Of a DNA stretch of 24,746 nucleotides, positions 2,321 to 20,017 are shown piece after piece. The notes under the pieces were generated by a model that saw nothing but the letters and a program-made list of their open reading frames with translations, had not been told where the DNA came from and did no database searches. Both the position numbers and the translations under genes were made by a program. Origin of the DNA: a virus. How positions within the stretch are numbered: position 1 is the first letter of the stretch; each line of letters opens with the position of its first letter. The DNA lies in IMG/VR virus record IMGVR_UViG_3300036846_000707, positions 1-24,746 of that record; one strand, given 5' to 3'.

Positions 2321-3499
2321 TTATTCTGCCCGTACAGCAATATTGATGGCAGCGTTTATATCCCTATGGTGATGTGCGCCGCAACTGCAAACCCATCGAC
2401 GATCAGCTAACATCAGATTTTCATTTATAGCGCCGCATCTGCTACAGCGTTTGCTGGTTGGCTCCCAGCGAGAAACTTTCAGTAATGCAACACCGCGCCA
2501 AGCACTTTTATATTCCAGTTGCCGGAAAAACTCACCAAGAGACACATCGGCCAGCGAACGGTTGAGGCCTCGTTTACGACTAGCCCCATTCGGCAGGAAT
2601 TTACCCGACTTATCCGGGGCCTCTTTAGGTTTTACGCTCGCCATCATCCCTTTCACGTTCAGATCCTCAACCGCCAATGCTTGGTTTTCGCGAGTCAGGC
2701 GATTGGTGAACTGATGCAGAAAATTGTTGCGAACGGCAGCGGCCTTCTCATACAGGCGCGCCACAATACGTTTTTGTTTCGACCTATTCGCGCTACCCTT
2801 CTGTTTACGTGCTAAGCATCGCTGAGCCCTGCGCAAGCGCTTCTGTATACGTTTGAATGCAGCCGGGCTACTCACCACCTCGCCAGTAGAAAGCGCGGCG
2901 AACTGGTGGGTAAATCCCTCAGTTTTACATCCCACATCAATACCCACTGGTGATAATTCCACTGTGGGTTGTGCCGGAAAATCGCGGCCATCATCGATGA
3001 GAACCGTGGCGTAAAATTTTCCAGTCGGTGTGCGGCGTACAGTGGCGCGTTTTATGCGCCCATCGAACTCCCTGTCCCCCCGGCAGCGCACCCAACCAGC
3101 TTTTGGCAATTTAAGCTGCCGCGGCTCCAACCTGATATTAGCGGCTGATGTAGTCGTGTATGAAGCATCACCATGGTGTTTAGATTTGAACCTTGGGAAA
3201 CCGGGTTTTTCACCGTTTTTTACCCGTCGAAAAAAATTTTTGTAGGCTGAATCCACGTCTGCACAGGCTTGTTTCAGGGCCTGGCTATCAACGTCTGATA
3301 GCCATAAATATTCATCTTTTTGTTTTACAACTCGCTTTGCCAACTCATATGCTGAAGGCCGTTTTTCTCCAGCTTCATATTGTTTCTGGCAGAATGCTAG
3401 TGCATTGTTAAAAACCCACCGACAGCAACCAAAAGTCTGCATAAAATAGATTTCCTGCTCCTTGCTCGGATATAATCTTATTTTTATCGCATATAGCAT
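2321..3499 (-). CDS. tnpB: TnpB, IS200/IS605-family RNA-guided endonuclease
   Basis: A 392-aa OrfB/TnpB protein. TnpB proteins are RuvC-type nucleases guided by an RNA made from the 3' end of their element and help retain it. The N-terminus has the family opening MLYAIKIRLYPSKEQE and the HTH region GCCRWVFNNAL. The RuvC triad looks intact: D188 (GIDVG), E278 (AVEDLNVKGM) and D380 (HHRDINAA). Zinc-finger cysteines are C352, C355, C371 and C373. The start is chosen at MLYAIK; upstream in-frame ATGs at 3520 and 3538 extend it by 7 or 13 residues that do not look like the family. No tnpA lies beside it, so it is a solitary IS1341-type gene. It lies in the immA region between two diverged copies of an 88-bp sequence and is convergent with telN. 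Confidence 0.92.
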   Translation of the reverse strand: MLYAIKIRLYPSKEQEIYFMQTFGCCRWVFNNALAFCQKQYEAGEKRPSAYELAKRVVKQKDEYLWLSDVDSQALKQACADVDSAYKNFFRRVKNGEKPGFPRFKSKHHGDASYTTTSAANIRLEPRQLKLPKAGWVRCRGDREFDGRIKRATVRRTPTGKFYATVLIDDGRDFPAQPTVELSPVGIDVGCKTEGFTHQFAALSTGEVVSSPAAFKRIQKRLRRAQRCLARKQKGSANRSKQKRIVARLYEKAAAVRNNFLHQFTNRLTRENQALAVEDLNVKGMMASVKPKEAPDKSGKFLPNGASRKRGLNRSLADVSLGEFFRQLEYKSAWRGVALLKVSRWEPTSKRCSRCGAINENLMLADRRWVCSCGAHHHRDINAAINIAVRAE

Positions 3500-3596
3500 T
3501 TTATTCGTCCAATTATTCATGTCCGTATAGCCACCCATGAAAAGTCATAAATTCGGGCTGGCCAACTCGGTCTATCATCGCACGCATGAGTAATTC

Positions 3597-4298: not shown

Positions 4299-4338
4299 GC
4301 TACCACCAGAGTTGCGAATCTCTATAGGGTGGTAGCCC
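4299..4338 (-). ncRNA. Leader hairpin before icd (seqC-like element)
   Basis: A perfect 9-bp inverted repeat, GCTACCACC (4299-4307) and GGTGGTAGC (4330-4338), encloses an inner 4-bp stem AGAG/CTCT whose loop holds TTGCGAAT (4312-4319). The complementary octamer TTCGCAAT is at 4347-4354 and ATTGCGAA at 4482-4489. These are the ingredients of competing pairings as in P4/P1 immunity RNAs. Confidence 0.55.
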
Positions 4339-4408
4339 AGACAGGGTTCGCAATACCGGCACAAAACGAAACCGGCCCGACCGAAGTCAGCCCCATCTGA
4401 GCCACCAT
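4322..4408 (-). CDS. Ash-family-like short ORF in the immA leader
   Basis: MVAQMGLTSVGPVSFCAG followed by IANPVWATTL (28 aa) resembles the Ash (phage ASH) family, typically ending ..TANPVWATTP, which is found just upstream of icd-like genes in many enterobacterial prophages. The frame stays open upstream through the attenuator as far as a TTG at 4513. No ribosome-binding site supports the ATG, and the region is also structured RNA, so the resemblance may reflect conserved RNA rather than a protein. Confidence 0.35.
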   Translation of the reverse strand: MVAQMGLTSVGPVSFCAGIANPVWATTL

Positions 4409-4436
4409 AATTCTGGTATGCGCAGATTTAACACAC

Positions 4437-4459
4437 AAAAAAACACGCTGGCGCGTGTT
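4437..4459 (-). terminator. Attenuator of the immA transcript
   Basis: On the minus strand, stem AACACGC / GCGTGTT with loop GCCA is followed by a run of T. It lies about 55-75 bases after the predicted start of transcription and before icd, so it would end a short RNA of the CI/C4 type unless transcription reads through. Confidence 0.75.
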
Positions 4460-4519
4460 GTGCGTCGTCTTGTGATTCGGGATTGCGAAGCCCGGTTGCG
4501 GAATTTGCCGCAACGGGCT
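4460..4519 (-). ncRNA. C4/CI-type antisense immunity RNA (candidate)
   Basis: The transcript from the promoter at 4521-4550 begins in a strong hairpin (AGCCCGTTGCGG pairing with CCGCAACCGGGCT, 4489-4519). It continues through TTCGCAAT (4482-4489), which can pair with the leader copies of ATTGCGAA and TTGCGAA further down, and would end at the attenuator 4437-4459. In P4, P1 and N15 such a processed RNA is the immunity factor that blocks expression of icd and the antirepressor. Called from structure and position. Confidence 0.6.
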
Positions 4520-4520
4520 A

Positions 4521-4550
4521 ACTCTACCGCCAAAACAGAACGCACGTCAA
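4521..4550 (-). promoter_or_regulatory. immA promoter
   Basis: Minus-strand TTGACG (4545-4550), an 18-bp spacer and TAGAGT (4521-4526) form a good sigma70 promoter. Start predicted near 4514, immediately before the leader hairpin. Confidence 0.7.
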
Positions 4551-11427: not shown

Positions 11428-11640
11428 ATGAAACCCGAAGAACTTGTGCGCCACTTTGGCGACGTAGAAAAAGCAGCGATTGGCGTGGGTGTTACACCCG
11501 GCGCAGTCTACCAATGGCTGCATGCTGGGGAGATTCCTCGTTTGCGGCAAAGCGACATAGAGGTCCGTACCGCTTACAAATTAAAGAGTGATTTCACCTC
11601 TCAGCGCATGGGTAACAAAGGATGTGATCGTGGAACTTAA
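11428..11640 (+). CDS. cro: Cro-like repressor
   Basis: A 70-aa Cro-family DNA-binding protein, MKPEELVRHFGDVEKAA with the helix-turn-helix GVGVTPGAVYQWLHAGEIP and the typical follow-on RLRQSDIEVRTA. It should compete with CB at the immB operators and favour lytic growth. The ATG is the only sensible start, lacks a Shine-Dalgarno sequence and sits about 8 bases after the -10 box, so the message is probably leaderless. Its 3' end overlaps the start of the Q-like gene. Confidence 0.88.
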   Translation: MKPEELVRHFGDVEKAAIGVGVTPGAVYQWLHAGEIPRLRQSDIEVRTAYKLKSDFTSQRMGNKGCDRGT

Positions 11641-12367
11641 AAGCATTCAAGCCTGTGTATCAACGGCTCTATCAGACCTGCATTATCTCCAGCGCGGCAT
11701 CCTTGAGGTTCAGCTGGAGCAGTTGCGCCTTGCCAGCTCTGGCCGCTTTACTGACAAACCGACCAGAACTATCTGTTTGGGCGATAGTGGGTCCGATGAA
11801 ATCACTATTGCCGCTGAACCCGTTCGTTATCATGTGGGAAAATCATTCAAACAGTCTTCGATGCTGCTCACTGAATTAGATTTCATGACCGCTAGCTGGC
11901 GTCGTGCAATCGAGCAGTTAAATAGCGAAGAGACTGCCTGGCTACATTATTGCTATGGCTGCAAACCAAATTATAAGAATGATGTGATTATTTGCCAGTG
12001 GCTGTGGCTCGATTTTTTAATTTCTCATTCCAGGGAGGGTTTCAAGAAAATGAAAGCCCCCACAAAAAACATCATGCAGAAATTAACTTACTACGGCATC
12101 CAGAACGTTAAATTTGAAATTCTGCATGATAAAGAAAGAAGTGAGATGGAGCAGGACGCATATATTAGCATTTTACTTGATATATCCGTGGATAGCTGGC
12201 GTAAGGATTATAAAAAACGCTGGTTGTTAATGAAATCACGATGCATGCATCTTAACGATATCGCACTGTTAAATGCGGCGGAGAAGCGCAGTGAAATCAT
12301 CGAAAGCCATCGTGCAGGATGTTCCGACTTGCCTGTGCCAGCAGGTTATGTACAGGAAGCCAGATAG
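11630..12367 (+). CDS. Q: Q-like transcription antiterminator
   Basis: A 245-aa protein in the position of N15 gp40, directly after cro, with the central pattern of phage antitermination proteins (EETAWLHYCYGCKPNYKND, ICQWLWLDF). Lambda Q-type proteins load on RNA polymerase paused at the late promoter and let it pass the following terminator; the candidate site is at 17258-18801. I chose GTG at 11630, preceded by AAAGGA with 7 bases spacing and overlapping the end of cro. An in-frame ATG at 11588 lies deep inside cro and has no ribosome-binding site. No N-type antiterminator is seen, as in N15. Assignment rests on motif and position. Confidence 0.75.
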   Translation: MELKSIQACVSTALSDLHYLQRGILEVQLEQLRLASSGRFTDKPTRTICLGDSGSDEITIAAEPVRYHVGKSFKQSSMLLTELDFMTASWRRAIEQLNSEETAWLHYCYGCKPNYKNDVIICQWLWLDFLISHSREGFKKMKAPTKNIMQKLTYYGIQNVKFEILHDKERSEMEQDAYISILLDISVDSWRKDYKKRWLLMKSRCMHLNDIALLNAAEKRSEIIESHRAGCSDLPVPAGYVQEAR

Positions 12368-12593
12368 GCCTGAACTCCGGTTCTCGGGAGTAAGGAATGA
12401 ATACATCATCTGGTGCCCTACATGCGGCTATCAGACGCTCCCTGACAGTAACAGACAATCCGTAATTACTGAATGGTATTTATCAAATCAACCGGGTAAT
12501 AAGCATATCGAAAAAATATGGCTCAAGCGTTATCTGGAAATCAAAGAGGGTGCGACCGCGGTCGCACAAGATAATGAAGAATACTCCGTTTAA
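12291..12593 (+). CDS. Hypothetical zinc-ribbon protein (100 aa)
   Basis: Two cysteine pairs, TCLC near the N-terminus and CPTCGYQTLP about 32 residues later, resemble the small zinc-ribbon proteins of lambdoid early regions (Lar-like). The GTG at 12291 (GGAG seven bases upstream) keeps both pairs; ATG at 12348 would lose the first, and ATG at 12273 is also possible. It overlaps the end of the Q-like gene. Centromere site IR2 (12550-12567) lies inside its 3' part, so codons there are constrained by the palindrome. Confidence 0.65.
   Translation: MKSSKAIVQDVPTCLCQQVMYRKPDRPELRFSGVRNEYIIWCPTCGYQTLPDSNRQSVITEWYLSNQPGNKHIEKIWLKRYLEIKEGATAVAQDNEEYSV
12550..12567. promoter_or_regulatory. Centromere-type site IR2 (SopB-binding palindrome)
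   Basis: GTGCGACCGCGGTCGCAC is a perfect 18-bp palindrome, the most symmetric of the four copies, embedded in a coding gene. Confidence 0.85.
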
Positions 12594-12777
12594 GCAAGGG
12601 CCCATGTCGCGCGATGATGCGGAAAATATTTCTCGGCTTTATAAGAAAAAAGGCCATGAGGTAGTTATCGCTGATTCTTTGGCTTTAGATGGGACATATT
12701 ATGTTTACGTCACTCTACCTGAATTAAAGAAAGAACCCACACCATCAAGAACTTTTCAACAAAGAATATGGGAATAA
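12574..12777 (+). CDS. Hypothetical 67-aa protein
   Basis: MKNTPFKQGPMSRDDAENIS, then VVIADSLALDGTYYVYVTLP; a small mixed alpha/beta protein of a type common in phage early regions. It overlaps the previous gene by 20 bases. ATG at 12604 (AAGG nearby) is an alternative start. Function unknown. Confidence 0.6.
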   Translation: MKNTPFKQGPMSRDDAENISRLYKKKGHEVVIADSLALDGTYYVYVTLPELKKEPTPSRTFQQRIWE

Positions 12778-13694
12778 ATATGGTTAACATGCAAAAAACC
12801 ATTCTGTCGATGATTATGCATAAATGGCTTGAAAGCGATTCTGTAATTATCGACACGGAAACAACCGGTCTTGCTGACGATGCTGAGATTATCGAGATAG
12901 CGATTATCAATATGCGCGGCGAAGTGTTGCTCGACACTCTTGTGAAGCCGACCAAATCAATCCCTCCGGAAGCAACCAAAATCAATCACATCACCAACGA
13001 AATGGTTGCCAATGCACCAGCGTGGCGTGATGTATTCCCAAAGGTGTTGACGATAATTAGCCAGCGTAAATGGCTGGCCTGGAACTCAGGTTTTGATGCC
13101 CGCATGCTAGGGCAGACCTGCGTAAACACGGTTTTTCTAAATAAAAACGCCTATTACGGGGCCTCCGTTGTTGCGCGGATTCACACCAGCCATATTGACG
13201 CCAAAGCAGTCTACGACCAGTGGTATGGAGAGTTTGACGAGAAGCGTAAAGCTTTCAAGCGTCAGAGCCTGACAATCGCAGCTGCGCGACACGGTGTATC
13301 AGTGGAGGGAGCACATCGCGCCCTGGCTGATTGCCAGATGGTTCTGGCCGTGCTGCAAAAAGTCTGCGCTCCCGCTCCTCAAACAGAAAGCGTTGCCGAC
13401 AAAGATTTACCTCCCTGCCCGTTCTGCTATGGCCCACCCTCGTTGTTCACCCATCACCTGAATGACAAAGGCTATGCCCCTTTATATCAGCCCGTGAATT
13501 ATGGCGATGATGGTCTGTACGTAGGTTCGTATGTCTTTTGCCATGAATGCGGCGCACAGGGTGAAGAAGTAAGAGACCACGTCTACGAAGATTCAGATGT
13601 TGCCCAGCTCGAAGCGGAGGCAAAGAACGTCTGGTCAGATCGTGACGAGCGCCACCGCGATCTGTATGTATCCAGCCAAGAGGACAAATCATGA
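12768..13694 (+). CDS. DnaQ-like 3'-5' exonuclease fused to a Lar-type zinc ribbon
   Basis: 308 aa. Residues about 24-200 form a DEDDh exonuclease: D29 and E31 in IIDTETTG, D110 in WNSGFDARML, then H183 and D188 in GAHRALADCQ, so the catalytic set looks complete. Residues about 212-295 form a separate zinc-ribbon module with CPFC (217-220) and CHEC (258-261), similar to phage restriction-alleviation (Lar-like) proteins. DnaQ-like exonucleases of phages act in repair or degradation of DNA or RNA; the role here is unknown. The start is ATG at 12768 (overlapping the preceding gene) or ATG at 12780 (GGGA six bases upstream). The stop overlaps the next ATG (ATGA). Confidence 0.88.
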   Translation: MGINMVNMQKTILSMIMHKWLESDSVIIDTETTGLADDAEIIEIAIINMRGEVLLDTLVKPTKSIPPEATKINHITNEMVANAPAWRDVFPKVLTIISQRKWLAWNSGFDARMLGQTCVNTVFLNKNAYYGASVVARIHTSHIDAKAVYDQWYGEFDEKRKAFKRQSLTIAAARHGVSVEGAHRALADCQMVLAVLQKVCAPAPQTESVADKDLPPCPFCYGPPSLFTHHLNDKGYAPLYQPVNYGDDGLYVGSYVFCHECGAQGEEVRDHVYEDSDVAQLEAEAKNVWSDRDERHRDLYVSSQEDKS

Positions 13695-15989: not shown

Positions 15990-16277
15990 TTAGTAGATGG
16001 CCTGAATATTGATATTAGCCCCGCATGCCTGGGCATATTTATTCAGGGTCTTCATACTTGCCCCAAGTGGGTTCCCTTCGAGGCGGCTAATTGCAGATGG
16101 GGGTATCCCCATTCTTTCAGCCAAGGCCGATTTAGTTAAACCGGCCTTTTCTCTCATCTCGTACAGCATTTCTAACAGGGCCAGCTCTCTATCTGCGTCC
16201 TGGTATCCCCGGATTGCCTCCGGGGTGTTGAGCAGCTTTTCCTTAACCTGGTTAAACGGGATGCCTTTCACTTTCAT
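15990..16277 (-). CDS. HigA-like antitoxin (XRE family)
   Basis: A 95-aa protein with an N-terminal toxin-binding region and an XRE helix-turn-helix at about residues 46-72 (LTKSALAERMGIPPSAISRLE). It corresponds to N15 gp48. It is second in the operon, its ATG overlapping the toxin stop by one base, the toxin-first order typical of HigBA. It should neutralise the toxin and repress the operon promoter near 16600. Confidence 0.85.
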   Translation of the reverse strand: MKVKGIPFNQVKEKLLNTPEAIRGYQDADRELALLEMLYEMREKAGLTKSALAERMGIPPSAISRLEGNPLGASMKTLNKYAQACGANINIQAIY

Positions 16278-16588
16278 TAGCTCATCTCCTTCAGGCGCGT
16301 TCTCGCGATTTCTATGGCCCCTGCAGGGGTTTTTTGTGTCTTCTTAACAAATGCATGCAACAGGTAAATTTCGTGGCCTACGGCGTATGCATACAGCGTT
16401 CTGGCTATGTTCTTATCTCCAACCCTTAACTCAAAAAGGCCACCGCCAATGACGCGGCTATGAGGCATTTTTAGTTTATTCCCTTCACTTTCCAGTCTTT
16501 CGATCAGCCGAGTCATGCGACCACGTAGCTCATCAGGTAGTTCTTGTAGCTCATCCAGCGCTGCCGGGTGGGTTAACACGTTAAACAT
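16277..16588 (-). CDS. HigB/Gp49-like toxin (RelE superfamily)
   Basis: A 103-aa member of the phage-derived Gp49-like family, which is named for the N15 protein: ALDELQELPDELRGRM, then GGGLFELRVGDKNIARTLYA and LLHAFVKKTQKTP, where the Arg and the KKT..TP region are the usual RelE-fold active-site area. Related toxins cut mRNA on the ribosome. The start at 16588 is preceded by AGGAGG with 7 bases spacing; a longer frame to 16654 lacks such support. Probable role: plasmid maintenance or phage exclusion. Confidence 0.87.
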   Translation of the reverse strand: MFNVLTHPAALDELQELPDELRGRMTRLIERLESEGNKLKMPHSRVIGGGLFELRVGDKNIARTLYAYAVGHEIYLLHAFVKKTQKTPAGAIEIARTRLKEMS

Positions 16589-16755
16589 AGTATAGCCTCC
16601 TGATACGTATAAATATACCAAAAGTGGAAATTTAACACAATAATTAAATTTCACTAAAAAGTGAAAAATAACACTGGATGTGTTTATTGGGCAGAGTTAC
16701 AGTTCGTGTCGTTGAGAGGGGAAAAGTCCCTAACCATATGAATCTGGGGTTGATT

Positions 16756-17220: not shown

Positions 17221-17238
17221 GTGCGACCACGGTCGCAC
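17221..17238. promoter_or_regulatory. Centromere-type site IR3 (SopB-binding palindrome)
   Basis: GTGCGACCACGGTCGCAC, 18 bp, with one asymmetric base pair at the centre. Intergenic, just upstream of the candidate late promoter. Confidence 0.85.
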
Positions 17239-17257: not shown

Positions 17258-17286
17258 TTGGCAAAACAGGCATTTTTAGGTATCGT
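17258..17286 (+). promoter_or_regulatory. Candidate late promoter (pR'-like)
   Basis: TTGGCA (17258-17263), a 17-bp spacer and TATCGT (17281-17286). The predicted start near 17293 lies about 30 bp before an intrinsic terminator and upstream of the methylase, lysis and terminase genes, the arrangement expected for Q-controlled late transcription. Confidence 0.5.
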
Positions 17287-17385
17287 TTTTCTAAGTTGGG
17301 TTATTTGCGCCTGACTCTCACATAACCGCCTACGTGAAGTGAACCCCGAAAGTTGGACACCCAACGATTAGGGGTTTTCTGTTTT

Positions 17386-17913
17386 ATGGCCAGGAAAAAG
17401 TTCACGCCAGAATTTAAGCAGCAGGTTGTTGCTCATTACCTCAACAGTGATGACGGCGCCAAAGCAACGGCCCGGCGTTTCGGCATTGATCATGGGGCAG
17501 TGCGAAGATAGACGGAACACTGGAAGGTCAGTGGCCAGGCCGGTTTCCTCATCAAAACTGCGCGTTACTCCGCTGCTCATAAAGAATCCGTCGTCCGCTA
17601 TATGTGGGATAACGCCGCTTCGTCCCGTAAGGCCGCAGCTGTTTTTCAGATTGCTGCTGCCTGTACTGTCAGCCGCTGGGAGCGTCTTTATCGTGAGGGG
17701 GGTATTCTGGCCCTTCAGGATAAGCCCCGAGGACGACCCGGAATGTCTGCCAAAAAATCCAAATCAGCACCCGCCCCTGTCGGCCAGCGACCGAATTTTA
17801 CGACCCCGGAAGAGGAGCTGGAGTATCTTCGCGCAGAGAACGCTTACCTAAAAAAGCTGCATGCCTTAATTCAGGAAAAGCAGTTGCAGACGCGGAAGAC
17901 AAAACGCGGATAG
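17386..17913 (+). pseudogene. IS150-group orfA with an in-frame amber codon
   Basis: Reads MARKKFTPEFKQQVVAHYLN through an HTH (AKATARRFGIDHGAVRR) to a TAG at 17509-17511, then continues in the same frame TEHWKVSGQAGF to the normal end TRKTKRG. The family has a conserved Trp here, so TGG has changed to TAG. The remainder holds a second HTH (RKAAAVFQIAAACTVSRWERL) and a leucine-zipper-like end (LEYLRAENAYLKK) before the slippery run of six A and G at 17850-17856. A restart at ATG 17602 would give a 103-aa fragment. Confidence 0.85.
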
Positions 17914-18755
17914 TTTCTGTATTAAGGCCCCTGTATAAACTGTCAGCTCTCCTGCATATCGCCGGTCTGGCGCGCAGCACGTTCTATTATCAGCTGAAAA
18001 TCCGCTGTTGTGATGACCGCCACTCTTCAGTCAGCCAAAGAATAGTGGCCCTGTTCCATTACCATAAAGGACGCTATGGATATCGCCGTATTACGCTGGC
18101 CCTGCGCAATGAAGGGCATGTAATAAACCATAAAACGGTCCGTAAGCTCATGCGGGAACAACAGCTCTCGTCAAATCTGAGGGCTAAAAAGTACAATTCC
18201 TACAAGGGGATATACGGGAAGACAGCGCCCAATGTGCTGCAACGCGACTTCACTGCCGATAAGCCGAAGCAGAAGTGGGTGACGGACGTGACGGAGTTCA
18301 GGGTGGGAAGCAAAAAGCTGTACCTCTCTCCCGTTATGGATCTTTACAACAGTGAGATTATTGCCTGGAATATGGATGAGCATCCCGGCATCGGTCTCGT
18401 GGCAAAAATGCTGGATGATGCGCTGGACGAGCTGAGTTCTGGTGATGGCCCGGTGCTTCACTCAGATCAGGGCTGGCAATATCAGATGGCGGTGTATCAG
18501 GAAAAGCTCTCTTCAAAAGGCCTGACGCAAAGTATGTCACGTAAAGGTAACTGTCTTGATAATGCAGTGATGGAGAATTTTTTTGGGATACTGAAATCAG
18601 AATGTTGGTACTGTGAAGAGTACCGTGATGTGGCTCAGTTAAGAGAAGCAGTGGATGAATACATCCATTACTACAACCATGAACGGATCAAAGCTAAATT
18701 AAATGGCCTGAGTCCGGTACAGTACCGGACTCAGGGAATATCAACCGCCACATAA
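17857..18755 (+). CDS. IS150-group transposase orfB (made by -1 frameshift)
   Basis: In the -1 frame after the AAAAAAG slip site the sequence runs KAVADAEDKTRIVSVLRPLY, then the HTH-21 domain (HYHKGRYGYRRITLALRNEG) and the rve integrase core with DDE residues in WVTDVTEF, LHSDQGWQY and NAVMENFFGILKSE. It has no initiation codon of its own before an internal ATG at 18045, so the active transposase is the OrfAB fusion. The orfA amber codon should block that fusion in a non-suppressor host. Ends ISTAT. Confidence 0.88.
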
Positions 18756-18889
18756 TAAAGTGTCCAACAAATGGGGTTCACTTCATACGGGCGGTTTTTT
18801 TGTGCCTGAAAAAGTGGGCGCGGGACAAGTTGCAGCTCATCCCGCGGTCAACCCATGCCAGAGGTATAGGCTGAACCTAAAGCCCACCC

Positions 18890-18933: not shown

Positions 18934-18937
18934 AGCT

Positions 18938-20017
18938 ATGTTAAAGACTACACAAATCGACGGAGCGCAGCTCGTTTGCGCAGATTCTCTGCAATTCATC
19001 AAAACCATTCCTGATAATTCCGTAAACCTTATCGCAACTGACCCGCCATATTTTGGCGTGAAGTCGAATGACTGGGATAACCAGTGGGACAGTGATGCGG
19101 ATTTTTTGGGCTGGCTTGATGAGTTTCTGGCGGAATTCTGGAGAATACTGGCACCAAATGGCAGCTTATACATGTTTTCCGGTTCGCGGCTTGCGTCAAA
19201 AATTGAACTGCTTACGCGCGACCGCTTCAATGTCCTGAGCCATATCACATGGGCTAAACCAAGCGGCGTATGGAAACGGCAAAATAAAGCGAGCCTGCGG
19301 GCTTTCTTCCCGGCAACTGAGCGCATCATATTCGCTGAGCATTACGGTGCATCTGGTTATGCAAAAGGTCAGTCAGGATATGCCAGCAAATGCGCTGACC
19401 TGCAGAAAGATATTTTTGCGCCGCTGATTGAATTGTTCGCCAGTGCGCGTCGCCAGCTGGGGATCTCAGCTGCAGACATCAATGCAGCTACAGGGAAAAA
19501 AATGTGTTCGCACTGGTTCTCTGCATCGCAATGGCGGCTTCCGTCTTTGGTTGATTTCCATAAGCTGCAGGCTTTATTCCAGAGAAGAGCAGAGGAAATG
19601 GGTGTTGCTTGCCCTCCTCCGTTTAACGTTGGATATGCTGAACATCAGCAGCACTATGCTGAGCTGAAGCAGAGCTATGAATCTATCAAAGGGCAGTACG
19701 ACGATCTGAAAGCGCAATATGAAAATCTGCGCCGACCGTTCTCAGTGACCGCAGATGTTCCGTATACAGATGTTTGGGCGTTTCCACCGGTACAGTATTA
19801 CCCAGGAAAACATCCGTGCGAGAAGCCAGCTGCGTTGATGGAACACATCATCAGCAGTAGCACTCGCCCTGGAGACGTAGTAGCTGATTTCTTCATGGGA
19901 TCGGGGAGCACAATCAAGGCCGCTCTGAAGCTCGGCAGAAAAGCTATCGGTGTAGAACTTGAAGAAGAACGCTACCTACAGACGGTAGAAGAAGTGAAAA
20001 GCATTACAGCGCTTTAA
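18938..20017 (+). CDS. DNA adenine N6-methyltransferase, beta-class motif order
   Basis: 359 aa. Catalytic motif IV DPPY is at 35-38 (LIATDPPYFG) and the AdoMet motif I DFFMGSGS at 317-324, with the target-recognition region between; this order marks the beta class of N6-adenine or N4-cytosine methylases. The middle contains a heptad-like stretch (YAELKQSYESIKGQ, YDDLKAQYENL, about residues 243-268). No restriction enzyme is next to it, so it is an orphan, probably protecting phage DNA or altering regulation. ATG at 18938 gives a normal N-terminus; no Shine-Dalgarno sequence is visible. N15-type phages carry a methylase in this place. The specificity cannot be read from sequence. Confidence 0.9.
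   Translation: MLKTTQIDGAQLVCADSLQFIKTIPDNSVNLIATDPPYFGVKSNDWDNQWDSDADFLGWLDEFLAEFWRILAPNGSLYMFSGSRLASKIELLTRDRFNVLSHITWAKPSGVWKRQNKASLRAFFPATERIIFAEHYGASGYAKGQSGYASKCADLQKDIFAPLIELFASARRQLGISAADINAATGKKMCSHWFSASQWRLPSLVDFHKLQALFQRRAEEMGVACPPPFNVGYAEHQQHYAELKQSYESIKGQYDDLKAQYENLRRPFSVTADVPYTDVWAFPPVQYYPGKHPCEKPAALMEHIISSSTRPGDVVADFFMGSGSTIKAALKLGRKAIGVELEEERYLQTVEEVKSITAL

Follow-up and report, generated by a model that had tools for sequence, protein, structure and literature searches.

The window, a stretch of 24,746 nucleotides from the viral record IMGVR_UViG_3300036846_000707, carries an IS150-type insertion sequence in the late region of an N15-type phage. The locus raises the question of whether the element entered a transcription terminator by chance or by a targeting habit of its kind, and of what became of termination there. 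A sequence-only reading had placed the element exactly in the loop of an intrinsic terminator that excision would restore. Joining both flanks of the element in a script restored AACCGCC-TACG-GGCGGTTTTTTT, a base-for-base match to the reported arrangement. The reading is borne out by two relatives with the same empty site: phage N15 (AF064539) has the exact sequence ATAACCGCCTACGGGCGGTTTTTTT, and Enterobacter phage MStein-2023a has an identical site with a TACG loop. The end of the span given, 18801, lies just past the T run of the terminator; the element itself ends at 18785.

Relatives of the N15/phiKO2 type had been named as the comparison to make, with the absence of a hairpin from them as the outcome that would speak against the reading. 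The hairpin is present at their empty site. Stem and T run are preserved in the phages YDC107_1, phiKO2, 48ST307 and KpLi5, whose loops differ, and an alignment of the six phages showed that the promoter region, stem and T run are conserved while the loop varies (TACG, TTTAT, ATCAG, GCCAA), the pattern expected of a working terminator. Folding of the N15 hairpin gave -12.7 kcal/mol, and of 23227 other window positions, 11 have seven perfect pairs closing a 4-nt loop. A generic terminator scan of the window did not report the split terminator. Both stem arms are intact and TACG is duplicated, unlike in insertion of the IS1272/IS1182 type, which is blunt, removes part of the stem and duplicates nothing. 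IS1397 and ISKpn1 likewise enter palindrome loops, but the palindrome here is an N15-type terminator and not a REP/PU sequence.

Table 1. Positions of features in the window and of mini-elements in other sequences (L numbers)
Feature	Position	Strand	Remarks
Q-like antitermination protein gene	11588-12364	+	phrog_304 'anti-termination protein Q-like', E 8.8e-60
Candidate late promoter TTGGCA-17-TATCGT	17258-17286	+	conserved in N15-type phages; annotated promoter in N15, putative late promoter in phiKO2
Terminator stem, left (5') arm AACCGCC	17324-17330	+	window sequence, phage alignment
Target duplication TACG, left copy (terminator loop)	17331-17334	+	flank comparison
IS3-family, IS150-group insertion sequence, 1451 bp	17335-18785	+	ends TGAAGTGAACCC / GGGTTCACTTCA
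Left-end terminator-like hairpin, left inverted repeat (IRL) plus leader just before orfA	17341-17377	+	about -17 kcal/mol
orfA frame	17386-17913	+	in-frame TAG at codon 42 (17509-17511)
orfB, DDE transposase, -1 frame relative to orfA	18045-18755	+	rve, IS3 family NF033516
29-nt palindrome inside the orfB 3' end	18707-18735		position conserved in relatives
Target duplication TACG, right copy	18786-18789	+	flank comparison
Terminator stem, right (3') arm GGCGGTT	18790-18796	+	T run onward to 18800
DNA adenine/N4-cytosine methylase gene, N15 gene 52 homologue	18935-20017	+	first gene past the terminator
Mini-element	L231:6795-6842		CGAA duplication
Mini-element	L249:639-687		CGAA duplication (L249/L250)
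Mini-element	L250:2061-2109		CGAA duplication (L249/L250)
Mini-element	L246:1412-1463		no detectable duplication
Mini-element	L233:999-1050		no detectable duplication
Mini-element	L238:1957-2008		no detectable duplication
Mini-element	L247:12817-12868		no detectable duplication
Mini-element, Providencia plasmid	L251:301-349		similar to viral-contig copies

The surroundings of the terminator resemble those of the tR' of lambdoid phages, in which a late promoter is followed by an intrinsic terminator and then by methylase and lysis genes. The N15 annotation marks a putative rho-independent terminator at the empty site, downstream of annotated -35/-10 signals, the corresponding place in phiKO2 carries annotations of a putative late promoter and of a terminator, and a scan of the window found the promoter-like site. 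The genes past the terminator are methylase, holin, endolysin and spanin, so the predicted layout of late promoter, terminator and methylase and lysis genes agrees with the window. An intrinsic terminator directly downstream of the late promoter is thus found both in the annotations and in the six-phage alignment, and the phage encodes a Q-type antiterminator. Because this Q-like protein is present, the split terminator is fairly read as a tR', and it is plausible that it is the site of Q action in this phage. A difference from the lambdoid arrangement is that the Q-like gene lies ~5 kb upstream. Alternatively, the hairpin could serve as a plain gene 51 terminator or be a palindrome with a regulatory role, as two small genes, gp50 and gp51, end just upstream. 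However, gp51 and the hairpin are separated by the promoter, which six phages conserve together with the terminator; along with the Q-like gene, this makes the alternative rather unlikely. On the preferred tR' reading, we infer that the terminator works with Q.

In its ends, duplication and transposase the element is of the IS3 family, IS150 group. The terminal inverted repeats match at 21 of 25 positions, the ends are of the TG..CA type, and the TACG duplication falls within 3-5 bp. OrfB matches NF033516 (6.2e-90) and the Pfam domains rve, rve_2 and HTH_21, as an IS3-type DDE transposase does. The orfA and orfB frames stand in a -1 relation, and in the Pantoea copies one annotated transposase CDS runs across both. 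These nearest copies are intact, full-length and located in Pantoea agglomerans plasmids, with 96-98% DNA identity. OrfA of the window copy is broken, and the copy is probably inactive now because of the in-frame stop at codon 42. When E. coli genomes were searched by megablast with the element, the only matches were distant ones of ISEcB1 type. The Pantoea copies have palindromic sites as well; for one copy the site is the terminator GCCGCC-TACG-GGCGGTTTTTTT. As a separate observation, the hairpin of the palindrome at the end of orfB is kept by relatives (30 of 43 at -12 kcal/mol or better), and its arms appear to co-vary (GGCCTGAG/CTCAGGCC, GGACTGAG/CTCAGTCC, GGATTGAG/CTCAATCC).

Relatives were gathered by OrfB similarity only, blind to the insertion site, from 80 loci in bacterial genomes and 40 loci in viral contigs, with additional copies from the same genomes and from plasmids. 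Element ends were called from the terminal-repeat consensus and the duplication, without hairpin information; requiring TG/CA tips misplaces the ends in Acinetobacter and Bacteroidota. This gave 134 distinct sites, 98 of them with a 3-5 bp duplication. Relatives whose OrfB is at least 60% identical to that of the window copy have 54 distinct duplication-flanked sites, of which 51 are hairpin loops, and at an identity of at least 50% the count is 79 of 93. Random positions of the same length in the flanks are hairpins in 7.3% of cases. A run of at least four T or A beside the stem accompanies 73 of the 79 hairpin sites compared with 9% of the chance flank hairpins, so that hairpin and run occur together at 73 of 93 sites versus 0.68% in the flanks. 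After dereplication by lineage the signal is weaker but kept: hairpins hold the insertion in 21 of 31 lineages, and a T run is present in 18. Multiple copies within one genome behave alike in Burkholderia, Cupriavidus, Kluyvera and Acinetobacter, and elements lie in either direction with respect to the T run without bias (30 vs 29, with 20 ties). The suggestion that the target is chosen by hairpin structure, which was to be checked by collecting further insertions, is therefore upheld and widened to dozens of independent sites of related elements.

Such a distribution might also arise if insertion were loose and intergenic terminators were merely the least harmful places to survive in. The sites are mostly intergenic and represent surviving insertions, to which purifying selection against insertion within genes contributes, and the close relatives IS150 and ISKpn8 show no hairpin preference. 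However, in 69 of the 79 hairpin sites the centres of duplication and loop are no more than 1 nt apart, a precision that purifying selection alone would not produce, whereas neutral intergenic landing would scatter insertions over tens to hundreds of bases. Together with the low yield of the same-length flank positions, this makes survivorship very improbable. A transposase reading a short GC-rich motif common in terminators, e.g. CCGCC-N4-GGCGG, is also improbable, though less so. CCGCC/GGCGG recurs among the nearest relatives, and 30 of the 41 sites with 4-bp duplications have C-G at position 5 counted from the duplication. However, in these 41 sites pairing of the arms exceeds that of arms shuffled between sites at the successive positions 1-11, indicating that the pairing is local and not merely a shared consensus. 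Stem sequences differ widely between sites yet pair within each site, and other relatives occupy AT-rich or different stems (AACGAGTTG/CAACTCGTT, AAAGGTCTGT/ACAGACCTTT, AAAAATCCC/GGGATTTTT).

Thus, insertion into terminator loops has recurred with pairing within each site and no fixed stem sequence. We consider it highly probable that this clade of the IS150 group picks the loops of palindromes, mostly those of intrinsic terminators, and that in the window it picked the likely tR' of an N15-type phage. The insertion machinery would single out the loops of palindromes, for most lineages those of intrinsic terminators, and would place the element in the middle of the loop while duplicating 3-5 bp; in the N15-type phage it would have used the conserved terminator that separates the putative late promoter from the methylase and lysis genes. 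We infer that the transposase itself recognises the palindrome, whether this is extruded as a cruciform or read as a symmetric site in duplex DNA. In viral contigs, a more distant element with 54% OrfB identity (L106-L121) lies repeatedly in GCCCCTC/GAGGGGC loops, in both orientations and with similar flanks, apparently in a dispersed terminator-like repeat of the host.

In the OrfB tree, terminator-loop targeting extends across Pseudomonadota, Bacteroidota and Bacillota. That the relatives lie mostly in terminator loops across several phyla points to a targeting habit rather than chance. Judged by eye, the insertion sites in Pseudomonas capeferrum and those of some Burkholderia copies seem to be palindromes, REP-like in the former and GC-rich in the latter. 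A second look at three annotated IS1397 copies placed all of them in PU loops, as published (PMC1525189). IS150 and ISKpn8 belong to the group by OrfB and ends, but their inspected copies have no hairpin at the sites and they lack the terminator-like hairpin at the left end. The inspected copies of the IS3 group, a small control set, showed no hairpin preference. Palindrome-loop targeting therefore looks like the usual state of the clade, and the REP targeting of IS1397 like a special case of it.

Hairpin targeting as such is already known from IS1397, ISKpn1 and IS1272, and the broad terminator-loop preference in the IS150 group is a variant of it. IS1397, ISKpn1 and others target palindromes at REP sequences (PMC1525189), and the transposase is reported there and in references therein as the determinant of target choice. 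IS1397 and ISKpn1 share with the present element the IS3 family, the type of end sequence, 3-4 bp duplications and insertion in palindrome loops, but their targets are species-specific REP/PU repeats, whereas those here are intrinsic terminators of unrelated sequence. The staphylococcal IS1272 and TnSha1 of the IS1182 family insert into hairpins, often terminators, with little primary sequence conservation (PMC4923244). They belong to an unrelated family, and their insertion is blunt, deletes part of the stem and makes no duplication (PMC4923244). ISEcB1, an IS3-family element of E. coli, is distinct from the window copy but has 63% OrfB identity to it, its inspected copies lie in terminator loops, and its left end has the corresponding hairpin and T run; the literature searched contained no report of its terminator targeting. 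Terminator-loop targeting in the IS150 group was likewise absent from this literature, which did not extend to the principal reviews on IS elements or the papers on IS1397, so that an earlier mention is possible. Nor did it, with key reviews outside its scope, report a terminator-like left end or nested mini-elements in this group.

The sequence-only reading had further proposed that loss of the terminator could uncouple the late genes from Q. As stated, this is unsupported, since the element itself begins with a terminator-like hairpin (Table 1) that any transcript from the candidate late promoter must cross. The hairpin is followed by a U-rich tail at 17378-17385, TCTGTTTT, before the ATG at 17386. 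The generic scan did not report it, a branched or long loop being outside the limits of the scan. Folding of the first 62-75 nt gave, in 38 of 49 divergent elements, a stem between the left inverted repeat and the leader just before orfA, followed by a U-rich tail. A matching inward-reading terminator at the right end was found in 1 of the 49, and the left-end hairpin with a U-rich tail in none of six IS3-group elements. Terminator targeting and the left-end terminator-like hairpin tend to occur together (29/40 vs 2/9, Fisher p 0.008), an association that is weak because the elements are related.

Several ISs are protected from impinging transcription, including by hairpins. The left-end hairpin fits two non-exclusive roles, shielding the orfA start from outside transcripts or terminating them, and release of the late genes from Q depends on whether it terminates. 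If it only hides the orfA start, the tR' is abolished and the late genes run without Q. The probable SD lies in the 3' arm of the hairpin (GGGG in the window, AAGG or GGGGG in other elements), which, with the protection known for other ISs, gives this possibility some weight. However, T makes up 69% and A 11% of the 8 nt that follow the stem in 76 elements, beyond what the spacing of the start codon needs, and the stems reach -35 kcal/mol. Hiding alone is thus a possible but less favored role; replacement of termination by the insertion is somewhat more likely than its removal, and termination may have moved by ~50 nt instead of disappearing.

Pattern scans of viral contigs also found palindromes of 48-52 bp that consist of two IS ends only and lie mostly in terminator loops, where mini-element and host terminator form one long nested hairpin. 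None were found in E. coli genomes, and a search by exact pattern found none in 25 genomes, most of which have full-length relatives. In one full-length element (L241) the left-end hairpin is a perfect repeat-to-repeat palindrome; for this reason the mini-elements could be mobilised left ends. A wider lifestyle can be proposed tentatively, at a little short of even chances, in which the clade harbours in terminator loops and rebuilds the terminator from its own left end. Structure-guided loop insertion in several phyla would make intrinsic terminators safe harbours, the broken terminator would be replaced by one built from the left inverted repeat and leader, and the mini-elements would enter the same loops and re-form a long nested hairpin, so that terminators would grow by transposition. 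If the elements restore termination, this would explain how they multiply without disturbing neighbouring genes. A single insertion thus leads to a testable rule, that a widespread IS group appears to recognise a transcription signal by DNA shape, with bearing on target choice by DDE transposases, on cruciform extrusion in cells and on the evolution of terminators and phage late switches.

Other features of the window were observed alongside. A GTGCGACCACGGTCGCAC palindrome at 17221-17238 lies just upstream of the late promoter, where phiKO2 is annotated with a putative plasmid partitioning site, and 48ST307 has a second copy nearby. A single ORF at 12768-13694 combines an RNase T/DnaQ-type exonuclease domain with a Lar restriction-alleviation domain and adjoins a separate Lar-like gene at 12273-12593. 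The minus-strand region 4325-4527 is a P1/P22-type antirepressor control region, with a C4 antisense RNA, its a1/b1 target and isrK matches. By eye, a 405-aa ORF at 2321-3538 on the minus strand is TnpB-like, of the IS200/IS605 type, so that a second mobile element may be present in the phage record. The minus-strand gene pair at 15990-16654, opposite to the late direction, is like N15 genes 48/49, and the annotation of KpLi5 calls its homologues there a repressor and a RelE/ParE-type toxin.
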